Positions 11,925 to 49,597 of a DNA stretch of 64,000 bases are shown one piece after another. A model generated the notes under the pieces. The model was not told the origin of the DNA and searched no databases. It saw nothing but the letters and a program-made list of their open reading frames with translations. Both the position numbers and the translations under genes were made by a program. Location: assembly GCF_017086365.1 (NCBI RefSeq), contig NZ_CP070969.1:2604001-2668000 (forward strand), given 5' to 3'. The number at the start of each line of letters is the position of its first letter. Position 1 is the stretch's first letter. This DNA comes from Paenibacillus tianjinensis (lineage in GTDB: Bacteria > Bacillota > Bacilli > Paenibacillales > Paenibacillaceae).

Positions 11925-11973
11925 GAAAGTTTCAAATCGTTGGCAGGGATAACGCAACGCTGATCATTTCTGC

Positions 11974-12060
11974 TCCACTTCCCTCCGCTGGTATGATCCA
12001 GATCAGGTTCCAAGGGTCCGGAGCATAAACTCCGTCTCAGTCGGCCGACTCCCCTAGTGA
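11974..12060 (-). ncRNA. TPP riboswitch aptamer (THI element)
   Basis: Read on the minus strand, the sequence contains the conserved blocks CTAGGGG, CTGAGA, ACCCTTGGAACCTGATCTGG and ATCATACCAGCGGAGGGAAGTG. These are the J3-2/P2-P3 and P4-P5 elements of the THI box. CACT at the 5' edge pairs with AGTG at the 3' edge to close P1. It is followed by the terminator hairpin and then thiZ-thiX-thiY, so TPP should switch the importer off. Confidence 0.95.
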
Positions 12061-12135
12061 AAAAACAGGTCAATATTCAATTCGTAATTGCTAATTAATA
12101 TACCATAACTTAGCGGATTGTAAAGATAGTCTTCC

Positions 12136-24401: not shown

Positions 24402-24444
24402 TAGTTATATCAATTGAACTTGATTTAATACTTTTAGAGAAATA

Positions 24445-24580
24445 GTGGCGGATGGGAATTTTGGAACTGCAGGAGCGGAAGCGTCCGCCTTGTCTGCGGA
24501 TTTCAACCGCGAACAGCGGTATACAATCAAGAAATCTGCAGACACCAGCGGCCGGAAGTCCAAATATTCTCTGTAGTCAC
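24445..24580 (+). repeat. Structured dispersed repeat, copy A
   Basis: This 136-nt element is closely related to 48782-48920. The outer GTG pairs with CAC; 24456-24468 pairs with 24557-24569 (one bulge on each side); a small hairpin lies at 24472-24486; and a 13-bp stem pairs 24492-24504 with 24531-24543 and encloses CCGC/GCGG. It sits in the gap of a five-gene sugar cassette in the same orientation. It could be a small RNA, a processing or attenuation element, or a non-autonomous mobile repeat. Confidence 0.75.
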
Positions 24581-24651
24581 GGCCAAGCTCTAAAATGGTA
24601 CTATCCCAAGTTTAATTTTGATTTATATTTATGATGAGAGGCGGCAGGTCA

Positions 24652-46326: not shown

Positions 46327-47682
46327 GTCTGTAAAATATATTGTGTAAACTCTCAAACCCATTAAAATGGAAGTAAGAGAAAGGTTGGGGAGAACACATG
46401 GGACTTTGGACAAAACAACAGTTACGGGAATTTATTAAGGAAAACAACTTGGTAAGCGCACAGGATGCGCAGAATGCTCTAAAAGAGCTATTTGCGGAGA
46501 CGATTCAGGAGATGCTGGAAGCCGAAATGGACACTCATTTAGGCTACGGAAAGCATGAAGTGAAGGCGAAGCTCACGCCAAACAGCCGTAACGGAAAGAG
46601 CCGTAAAACGGTTGTCAGTGAGTACGGGGAACAGGAAATCGCTATCCCTCGTGACCGTCTGGGTGAGTTTGAGCCACTTGTCGTCAAGAAGCATCAGTCG
46701 AACGTAACCGGCATCGAAGAGCAAATCATCGCTCTGTACGCCAAAGGGATTAGTACCCGAGAAATTCAGGATCACCTGGGGCAGATGTATGGCATTGAGG
46801 TGTCGCCTACGCTCATTTCCAATGTCACAAATAAGATTGTTCCTCTCATTAAAGAATGGCAGAATCGGCCTCTGCAAGGCGTTTACGCTGTTGTCTATCT
46901 GGATGCGATCCACTTCAAAGTCAAGCAAGACGGGGCCATTATCAACAAGGCTGCCTACATGGTCATTGGCATTGATCTGGACGGAAACAAAGACGTGCTG
47001 GGCATGTGGATTGGTGAGAACGAGTCCTCCAAGTTCTGGCTCAGCGTGCTGAATGAACTCAAGAATCGTGGAGTGGGGGACATTCTCATTATCTGCGTGG
47101 ATAACCTGTCCGGGTTCTCTCAAGCGATTGCGGCCTGCTATCCCCAAACTGAAATCCAGAAGTGTATTATTCACCAAATCCGCAGCTCTACACGGTACGT
47201 GTCTTACAAGGATATTAAGAAGGTGACCGCCGACTTAAAGCCTATATACAAGGCAGCTACCGAGGAAGGTGCCTTGCTTGAACTCGACCGTTTTGAGGAA
47301 GTCTGGGGGGCGAAATATCCCCTCATTATCCGTTCGTGGCGGACGAATTGGGACGAACTTGCTACTTTTTTCAAGTACCCGCCTGAGATACGTAAACTGA
47401 TTTACACCACCAATATGATTGAGAGTTACCACCGTCAGCTTCGTAAAGTAACCAAAGGAAAGAGCATCTTTCCTACCGATGAAGCTCTGCTAAAAATGCT
47501 CTATCTGGCCACCGTCGATGTCACTCGAAAATGGACTGGACGTGTCCAAAACTGGGGCCAAATGCTGCTCCAGCTTTCGGTATTTTTCCCAGACCGGGTC
47601 GGTCAACACTTGCGTTAGATTCGCGACTTCCCCCTCGGGGGAATCTGTGCTTAAAAGAGTTTACACAAAATTATTGACAGAC
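46327..47682 (+). mobile_element. IS256-family insertion sequence
   Basis: The 1356-bp element is bounded by 27-bp imperfect inverted repeats: left 46327-46353 starting GTCTGT and ending TTGTGTAAACTCT, right 47656-47682 its complement with the same terminal GTCTGT. One transposase gene fills it. No matching 8-bp target duplication is visible (TAGATGGA on the left, CCGACATT on the right), so the outer ends may have rearranged. It lies within a secreted-protein gene. Confidence 0.88.
46398..47618 (+). CDS. IS256-family transposase
   Basis: The 406-aa mutator-type transposase appears complete. The DDE catalytic residues are Asp 169 (VYLDAIHFK), Asp 235 (CVDNLSGF, where many relatives have DGLKGF) and Glu 342 (NMIESYHRQLRK, with the family K/R cluster). 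The start has AGGTTGGGGAG about 10 bp upstream. No frameshift or stop was found, so it may be active. Confidence 0.93.
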   Translation: MGLWTKQQLREFIKENNLVSAQDAQNALKELFAETIQEMLEAEMDTHLGYGKHEVKAKLTPNSRNGKSRKTVVSEYGEQEIAIPRDRLGEFEPLVVKKHQSNVTGIEEQIIALYAKGISTREIQDHLGQMYGIEVSPTLISNVTNKIVPLIKEWQNRPLQGVYAVVYLDAIHFKVKQDGAIINKAAYMVIGIDLDGNKDVLGMWIGENESSKFWLSVLNELKNRGVGDILIICVDNLSGFSQAIAACYPQTEIQKCIIHQIRSSTRYVSYKDIKKVTADLKPIYKAATEEGALLELDRFEEVWGAKYPLIIRSWRTNWDELATFFKYPPEIRKLIYTTNMIESYHRQLRKVTKGKSIFPTDEALLKMLYLATVDVTRKWTGRVQNWGQMLLQLSVFFPDRVGQHLR

Positions 47683-48702: not shown

Positions 48703-48781
48703 AAATATCAACCGCCAATTATTAGGTTGAGCCTTATTTATACTATAAAAATTGAAAATGAAAATATACACTTGGAAAAAA

Positions 48782-48920
48782 GTGCGGAGGGGAATTTTGG
48801 AACTGTAAGAGCGGTAGCGTCCGCCTTTGTCTTCGGATTTCTACGCTAATAGCGTTTAAAATCAAATAAAGAAATCTGAAGACAACAGCGGCTGGAAGTC
48901 CAAACATTCTCTGTAGACAC
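48782..48920 (+). repeat. Structured dispersed repeat, copy B
   Basis: This 139-nt element aligns along its whole length with 24445-24580. It keeps the GTG/CAC closure and the GAATTTTGGAACT with AGTCCAAAxATTC stem. It also keeps the 13-bp stem (48829-48841 with 48871-48883) and an inner CGC/GCG hairpin. The long stem shows a compensatory change (G-C in copy A, T-A here at 48833 and 48879). It sits between the transposase remnant and a frameshifted lipoprotein gene. Confidence 0.75.
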
Positions 48921-48961
48921 TCTAATCCAAAATAGAAAGTACAAAATTTCAACTGAAATTG

Positions 48962-49597
48962 CTAATGAATATATTTGATATTTCTCGCTACCTCCAGAAA
49001 GAGCGGAAGAATGGTTTCTTTGTTACTGCTGAAATACGAAAAGTAGATCATCATTGCTGGAGCGCTGTCATGCCCCAATACAAAGCCATCCGTCCTTCGC
49101 CACTTGTTACCTTCACTCGCACTCCCAATGTATTCCTCATATTGCGTTAAGTCCTCGTCCATAAACAGAACATCACCGCCAAACGGAGTGATTCATGCGG
49201 ATTCTCCGGATCTGTGAGCCTTTCCACCTCAGTGAGGGAAATAAACTCCGATTTGTTCATTCCCACCTCGGAACCATCCTCATACATGAATTCTTTCATA
49301 CGATCAGGGATATAGAACCCGTAGGGGTGAAGATCTATTTTAACAAACGTTGCGGGATATTCCTTTCCGGCAATGCTCAATACCTTTTCCTCTCCTGAAT
49401 AGGAGAGATCATGAATCAGCTTTTATTTTGGGGGTCGCAGTTGCTGCAGGAGCATCGGTCGGCAGGATCACCTCATCATTGACTGGTACCTGTGCAGTAG
49501 AAGCAGATGGAGCAGTAAGCTTGGATTGACCGGAGTTGGAGCAGCTGATCAGGGCGATAAGAGAACAGATGCTGCAGAATTTTAAGAGCATGCGCAT
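48962..49597 (-). pseudogene. Lipoprotein gene with two frameshifts
   Basis: Three minus-strand frames join into one protein. First comes a lipoprotein signal (MRMLLKFCSICSLIALISC, lipobox ISCS, Cys about 19) with a Thr/Ala/Pro-rich linker to ATPKIKADS. An extra base, plausibly in the TTTT tract at 49421-49424, shifts the frame. Next is IHDLSYSGEEKVLSIAGKEY to NPHES, where a base is missing near 49190. Last is PFGGDVLFMDEDLTQYEEYIG to a stop at 48962. The reconstructed protein would be about 210 aa. Sequencing error is possible but would have to strike twice. Confidence 0.7.

Follow-up and report, generated by a model that had tools for sequence, protein, structure and literature searches.

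The two related sequences in the window, by which we mean the whole 64,000-nucleotide stretch of Paenibacillus tianjinensis DNA that was analysed, are best read as copies of a mobile, non-autonomous, high-copy foldback repeat of Paenibacillus and its relatives. One type of this repeat (type A) would be an IS630-type MITE, and the fold of its core would be selected in single-stranded form; we give this reading as a whole a probability of about 0.7. Both window copies belong to type A, and their parts are as follows.

24406..24627, + strand: copy 1, whole type A element of 222 bp, with degenerate inverted ends (TATATCAATTGAAC and its partner)
24445..24580, + strand: copy 1, conserved folded core comprising P1, P2, P3 and P4, 147.9 bits with the R1 covariance model
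24487..24547, + strand: copy 1, P3-P4 hairpin, from the sequence and the predicted fold
48744..48963, + strand: copy 2, approximate extent, both ends within 4 mismatches, the end remnants being weak
48782..48920, + strand: copy 2, conserved folded core, 137.8 bits with the R1 covariance model

An earlier note on this DNA had aligned the two ~137-nt cores end to end and in the same orientation. BLAST inside the genome itself confirmed the alignment (83% identity, row 2652784-2652920), and its E-value of 2.5e-33 excludes chance as the source of the likeness. The ~137-nt unit stands as the folded core, not as the whole element, since copy 1 extends over 222 bp. The + strands of both copies fold alike, as had been proposed, with z-scores against shuffles of -4.16 (copy 1) and -6.39 (copy 2) for RNA folding and of -3.88 and -5.36, respectively, for DNA folding. 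The stem pair cited as compensatory was also correct on recounting, with G24496 and C24539 in copy 1 and T48833 and A48879 in copy 2. Below, G000 denotes the own genome (6.27 Mb), other G numbers the compared genomes, and L numbers the loci that we read. Between copy 1 and its orthologue in G083, the P3-P4 hairpin differed only at the 3' foot of P3; in copies other than copy 1, this hairpin is the part replaced between orthologues.

Two further features of the window lie outside the repeat. A TPP riboswitch at 11963-12065 on the - strand (82.5 bits) was the window's only Rfam match at the gathering threshold. On the + strand, 46398-47618 encodes an intact-looking 406-aa transposase of the Mutator family (PF00872), about 1.1 kb before copy 2, for which we found no link to the foldback repeat.

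The predicted fold of the core is strongly supported. Its parts are the outer stem P1, a three-way junction that has conserved bases, P2 (a mini-hairpin of 2 bp) and the long stem P3 with P4 as its cap. RNAalifold on 26 own copies, the same number from which R1 was built, gave 44 pairs, 16 of which had changes on both sides. The covariation itself was observed in a larger set of 97 matches from 79 loci in several genomes, aligned to R1, which gave 94 distinct rows. In these rows, 94.1% of the 3986 cells were paired, against 73.7% in shuffles; changes on both sides occurred at 40 of the 44 pairs, and the covariation score was 0.556, compared to 0.191 in shuffles. None of the 500 shuffles matched the real alignment on any of five measures, and when the partners were slid by 1-3 columns as a control, 31.9-50.2% of the cells paired. 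The size of the effect is inflated, because the rows are related to each other and R1 supplied the structure to which the alignment was fitted. It is the architecture that is kept, rather than the stem sequence. The stems GGGAATTTTGGAACTG/AAGTCCAAACATTC and GTGACGGAATTGTACTG/AAGTACAATCCGTCAC are widely different, and both pair; the conserved part is the junction, roughly CTGnAGRAGCGnnAGCGTYCGCCTTTG and CAACAGCGRYCGGAAG. Moreover, subfamilies with unrelated stems and different carriers have one common fold.

The family is large. With copy 1 as query, BLAST matched the own genome at 50 or more places, 40 of the 85 candidates being scored, and R1 gave 83 matches there at E ≤ 0.001, which disposes of the possibility, raised in the earlier note, that only two copies exist. 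Two of the 83 (~30 bits) are partial, opposite-strand shadows of strong copies, and at least ten are located within an insertion sequence. R1 matched 43 of 60 genomes, the own genome included, namely all 37 from the same genus, with 5 to at least 54 matches each, and 6 of the 23 from other families of the order. A second model, R2, built from 97 matches, found the element in 39 of 398 genomes of the class at E ≤ 1e-5; these comprised 12 of the same genus, 25 from other genera of the family, one from a different family within the order, and one distant genome whose only hit, a putative match, is weak (E = 3.1e-6). In an exact-pattern scan of named genomes, the 80 matches listed were all from Paenibacillus. 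G083 carries 88 element matches and G011 carries 65 at E ≤ 1e-12. The covariance search suggested in the earlier note has thus yielded, with more copies, many matches and strong covariation across Paenibacillus genomes.

The remark that no Rfam family fits the core likewise held: none was found for it in the window (gathering thresholds), in the copy 1 region (E up to 10) or at five other loci (E up to 1). At L089, positions 1943-2014 on the + strand match the Enterococcus sRNA Ref64 with 32.5 bits, below its threshold of 44.3; this match lies beside the core, not in it, and overlaps the start of an insertion sequence (IS) transposase gene. The copy 1 core had no match in phage and plasmid collections at blastn sensitivity, and the accessible portion of a study that counts Paenibacillus repeats (PMC3012674) describes none like this one. 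Clusters of matches spaced by 170-400 nt suggested an integron-like array. Of six clusters noted, we read L171 (G006:C1:5211000-5216500) and scanned the other five with the model only. L171 is a local tandem duplication of a ~400-bp unit that holds the element and a terminator-like hairpin, and an integron-like array was rejected for this cluster. G002 and G041 contain match clusters similar to that at L171.

Many copies are bounded, beyond the core, by inverted ends that resemble TATATAGATTGAACT...AGTTCAATCTATATA. Allowing 4 mismatches, we observed both ends in 27 of 56 own copies, one end in 8 and neither in 21, with a chance rate of an end match of 0.13 per flank. For type A, which is about 220-235 bp long, and for no other type, we found terminal inverted repeats together with short length and no coding capacity. 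Insertion was observed at orthologous sites. The copy 1 site is empty in G011, G009 and G032 and occupied in the sister genome G083, and the site of L118, also type A, is empty in G083, G009 and G025 and occupied in G011. These occupied and empty sites show that insertion took place; they do not thereby identify the enzyme. At L012, L018 and L016, a whole element is nested within the P3/P4 apex of an older copy. Excising the nested element of L018 in silico leaves ACCGC-TA-ACAGCGGT, with an intact apex hairpin and one TA. The TA duplication is clean in this nested case, whereas the copy 1 and L118 sites are compatible with it and blurred by divergence. The element is therefore a non-autonomous, MITE-like foldback repeat, and with its inverted ends, empty sites in relatives and nested insertions, the spread non-autonomous element envisaged in the earlier note has been found.

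The ends also resemble those of IS630 elements, as observed at two loci. L125 in the own genome is an IS630-family element of 1134 bp whose transposase match contains one stop, and L126 in G009 is a 1137-bp element of the same family with two overlapping frames. The ends of both, TATATAAGTTGAACT, are the same 15 letters as one end of the own copy L046. The IS630 transposase family (PF13358) was matched in 12 of 37 genomes searched, and the only match in the own genome is the one interrupted by a stop. This IS630 copy was found through its protein family and not through the exact type A end, which occurs at 57 places in the own genome, where no inverted pair 1-3 kb apart was seen by eye. Taken together, the inverted ends, the near-identical IS630 ends and the empty and occupied sites identify type A as a mobile IS630-type MITE. 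Judging from the sequences, type A is probably moved in trans by IS630.

The 21 of 56 own copies with neither end speak against our main reading, as does the stop in the own genome's only PF13358 match. These 21 copies also show that not every copy carries terminal repeats; their presence in all copies had been named in the earlier note as the mark of a simple mobile repeat. Nine equal-scoring R1 matches in the own genome lie in a ~2-kb repeated element with at least nine near-identical copies there (L089:50-2262, approximately, and eight further places). The genes of one copy, at L089, encode the transposase domains DDE_Tnp_1_6, DUF772 and DDE_Tnp_1, a set that we take to be IS1182-type. In L089 the core lies immediately upstream of where the transposase begins, and its orientation points away from the transposase. 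The outer end of this IS is a long hairpin, GGGGCTATCCCAAGC...GGGACAGCCCC, followed by a T-rich flank in most copies read. In other genomes, copies are flanked by a motif of about ATTAGTGCTTGAAA, in part with an inverted partner, both as read by eye, and L164 by AGAGCGTGTTCAAAAAGG, a variant of which occurs at L149; the type C ends and those of L149 and L164 were read by eye and without a control. As the same fold is found on IS1182-type IS and with other end types, IS630 cannot be the full explanation. Outside the core, long inverted arms of locus-specific sequence surround several of the copies that lack type A ends, and L045, L112, L114, L026, L108 and L023 sit at the apex of such arms. At the L045 site, both outer arms differ between G000 and G011/G009.

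Stems and arms are replaced rapidly, and we observed this at orthologous loci. The L114 site holds one element common to five genomes, with the outer stem and junction nearly the same; its P3-P4 type is GTCTCCAGATTTA/TAAATCTGGAGAC in G000, G083 and G025, and ATGTTTGGATTTC/GAAATCCAAACAT in G009 and G011. The P3-P4 type differs likewise at the L045 site between G000 and G009/G011, where the outer arms changed too. We compared 32 orthologous pairs from G000 and G083, with a mean flank identity of 95.2% (range 87.2-99.7). An extra arm of 38-39 nt, consisting of two hairpins, distinguishes 9 of the 32 pairs; in L027/L313 the extra arm differs and the remaining frame is identical. By script, 8 of the 32 have at least three P3 pairs with both sides changed, and of these we accepted six, as a minimum (L115, L107, L108, L104, L110 and L054). 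The other two were left out, as the nine changes in L001/L270 reflect a register shift and L014/L325 is doubtful, with 9 of 15 pairs in one arm. Both sides had changed at 47 positions, where 22.9 would be expected from independent arms, or at 38 positions against 14.9 without the artefactual L001/L270. We must also note that 15 of the 32 pairs show neither event (17 show either by script) and that most unchanged stems are nearly identical, which speaks against a simple reading.

The source of the new stems was examined among the collected copies, which for G083 are 61, fewer than its 88 matches. In L122, one P3 arm belongs to each of two types and 11 of 15 positions pair; this chimera is likely the end of a conversion or template switch, a recombination end. 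The own-genome hairpins of L115, L108, L054 and L110 have no close match among the collected copies (0.75-0.82), which favours rewriting in place. With several changed stems lacking a close donor among these collected copies, direct conversion from a present-day copy is unlikely to be the sole cause of stem change. That template switching can produce such changes has been published, and the part of that work available to us describes the process as able to create and maintain hairpins (PMC8794818).

The two strands are not equivalent. G-T pairs outnumber A-C pairs by 146 to 50, which indicates that one strand matters. Of 93 copies, 87 fold more stably on the + strand under RNA parameters and 83 under DNA parameters, so stability does not separate RNA from DNA. 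The P2 loops of the 93 copies are GNNA in 64, GNA in 21 and of other sequence in 8. In 51 of the 64 tetraloops the third place is a pyrimidine, and these are therefore not GNRA loops. According to the accessible text of PMC4686876, DNA mini-hairpins with a GNA or GNNA loop are extraordinarily stable when they have two or more G-C pairs.

Taking dnaA of the own genome, at position 328, as reference, 49 of 58 copies there point with the replication fork, as do 70 of 87 in G083 and, among the matches listed, 24 of 30 in G028, 21 of 27 in G014, 14 of 16 in G010 and 6 of 9 in G034; the origin was checked by dnaA for G000 only and elsewhere assumed at position 0, with the terminus at half. In the copies that point with the fork, the + strand is the lagging-strand template. 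The same 58 own copies, a set that leaves out the IS1182-borne and most other low-scoring matches among the 83, are sense to both neighbour genes in 37 cases and antisense to both in 4, with genes called by a codon-usage script, not taken from annotation. Among 18 copies from six genomes, picked because they run against the fork, the downstream gene is antisense in 14 of 17, and the upstream gene is split 8:6. Lagging-strand gene pairs are split 2:2 in G000 and 2:2 in G083. Replication is the better single predictor of orientation than transcription, and given the against-fork copies, transcription is not favoured as the sole cause. From orientation and loop type, two indirect indications, single-stranded DNA may be the selected form of the fold, and DNA of the lagging-strand template is more likely to be that form than RNA. 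The earlier note had seen selection on RNA structure in the two copies. The strong covariation stands, now in many copies; RNA as the selected form is not established, because replication accounts for the orientation no less well than transcription does, because the P2 loop obeys the DNA and not the RNA stability rule, and because template switching or conversion, through fast concerted stem changes, can make part of the covariation.

A functional structured RNA riding on mobile elements, such as a UTR or intercistronic element or an sRNA, for example an RNase cleavage or mRNA-stability site, would account for the very strong covariation, the conserved junction bases, a + strand that folds better and tolerates G-T pairs, and the 37 own copies that are sense to both neighbours, against 4 antisense to both. 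Transcripts of Correia and ERIC repeats are known to affect mRNA, according to the portion of PMC2229807 available. We nevertheless consider this explanation unlikely: the against-fork copies are antisense to the downstream gene in 14 of 17 cases, the P2 GNNA loops with a third-place pyrimidine (51 of 64) are not GNRA, the concerted stem changes are faster than point mutation would allow, and several orthologous copies differ by a whole arm. Doubtful, and a little less so than a functional RNA, is a plain MITE in which the fold is passive and has no function, one arm being copied onto the other by template switching or conversion. The ordinary MITE features, the concerted changes at orthologous sites, the hairpins of L115, L108, L054 and L110 that have no close match, the mismatched arms of chimeric L122 and the reported capacity of template switching to create and maintain hairpins (PMC8794818, as far as accessible) agree with it. 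However, copying of arms does not explain the conserved unpaired bases of the junction and loops, nor the same fold in subfamilies with other ends and in IS1182-type IS; it gives perfect pairs and thus leaves unexplained why G-T pairs exceed A-C pairs (146 to 50).

It is very improbable that the repeat is REP-like and travels as single-stranded DNA through a Y1 transposase of the IS200/RAYT type. The hairpin structure, the intergenic dispersion, the replication-biased orientation and one Y1_Tnp match in the own genome recall such elements, but 25 of 40 genomes have no Y1_Tnp match, including the copy-rich G011 (65 element matches, E ≤ 1e-12), G012 (at least 53) and G018 (at least 52). On these missing Y1 genes, we rejected a REP/RAYT identity. 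Moreover, type A ends are inverted, and the element is 140-235 bp long, compared to 20-40 bp for REPs in the consulted part of PMC3733652. We also entertain, as a tentative and rather unlikely proposal, that the core is a structure-coded single-stranded DNA element which a host or transposon factor recognises by shape and which unrelated transposons carry. The + strand, which in roughly four out of five copies belongs to the lagging-strand template, would then present a branched foldback with a d(GNA) or d(GNNA) mini-hairpin. Recognition of shape and not sequence would explain why IS630-type MITEs, IS1182-type IS and elements with other ends each came to carry the core, and why the stems are free to be rewritten.

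Under the reading that we prefer, the mobile foldback repeat with type A as an IS630-type MITE, a type A copy would insert at TA and consist of a structured core flanked by inverted ends TATATAGATTGAAC, and an IS630-family transposase would move such copies in trans. The core would have a fixed single-strand architecture, with the fold selected in single-stranded form. The P1 and P3 stems would be rewritten on both sides together and the two-hairpin arm of 38-39 nt gained or lost, in both cases probably as a result of template switching or inter-copy conversion in the course of replication. The repeat thus represents a large family unrecognised by the Rfam scans made here. Because a single fold recurs naturally at many known loci, and the divergence of the orthologues is known, the origin of compensatory change, be it selection, template switching or conversion, becomes directly measurable. 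If the fold acts as single-stranded DNA, covariation can also be the sign of a DNA structure, although it is usually taken to prove a functional RNA; this would be a warning for covariation-based screens for new RNAs.

Several known repeats share features with this family; the likenesses below are taken from the accessible parts of the cited sources. Type A is of a familiar kind, an IS630-type MITE like RUP of Streptococcus pneumoniae, which is short and non-autonomous, has ends like those of IS630-Spn1 and inserts at TA (PMC2229807, PMC3049150). RUP is 107 bp long, whereas type A has 220-235 bp, and the branched core described here also occurs outside IS630-type ends. The Correia/NEMIS repeats of Neisseria likewise have inverted ends, TA at the termini and a structured transcript, and they form two size classes differing by an internal segment of about 50 bp (PMC2229807). 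In our family, by contrast, the segment that may be present or absent is the arm of 38-39 nt with its two hairpins, which orthologous loci have gained or lost, and the stems are rewritten. ERIC and BOX are structured interspersed repeats as well; BOX is modular, with boxA, boxB and boxC units, and ERIC effects depend on orientation (PMC3049150, PMC2229807). Both differ from our repeat in sequence and architecture, as set apart by the Rfam scans and not by direct alignment. The bcr1 repeat of the Bacillus cereus group, which PMC3733652 counts as a bacterial MITE, is also a mobile repeat of a Gram-positive genus, a likeness that concerns its description and not its sequence. What is new, compared to these systems, is a shape-conserved, stem-swapping core on several carriers.
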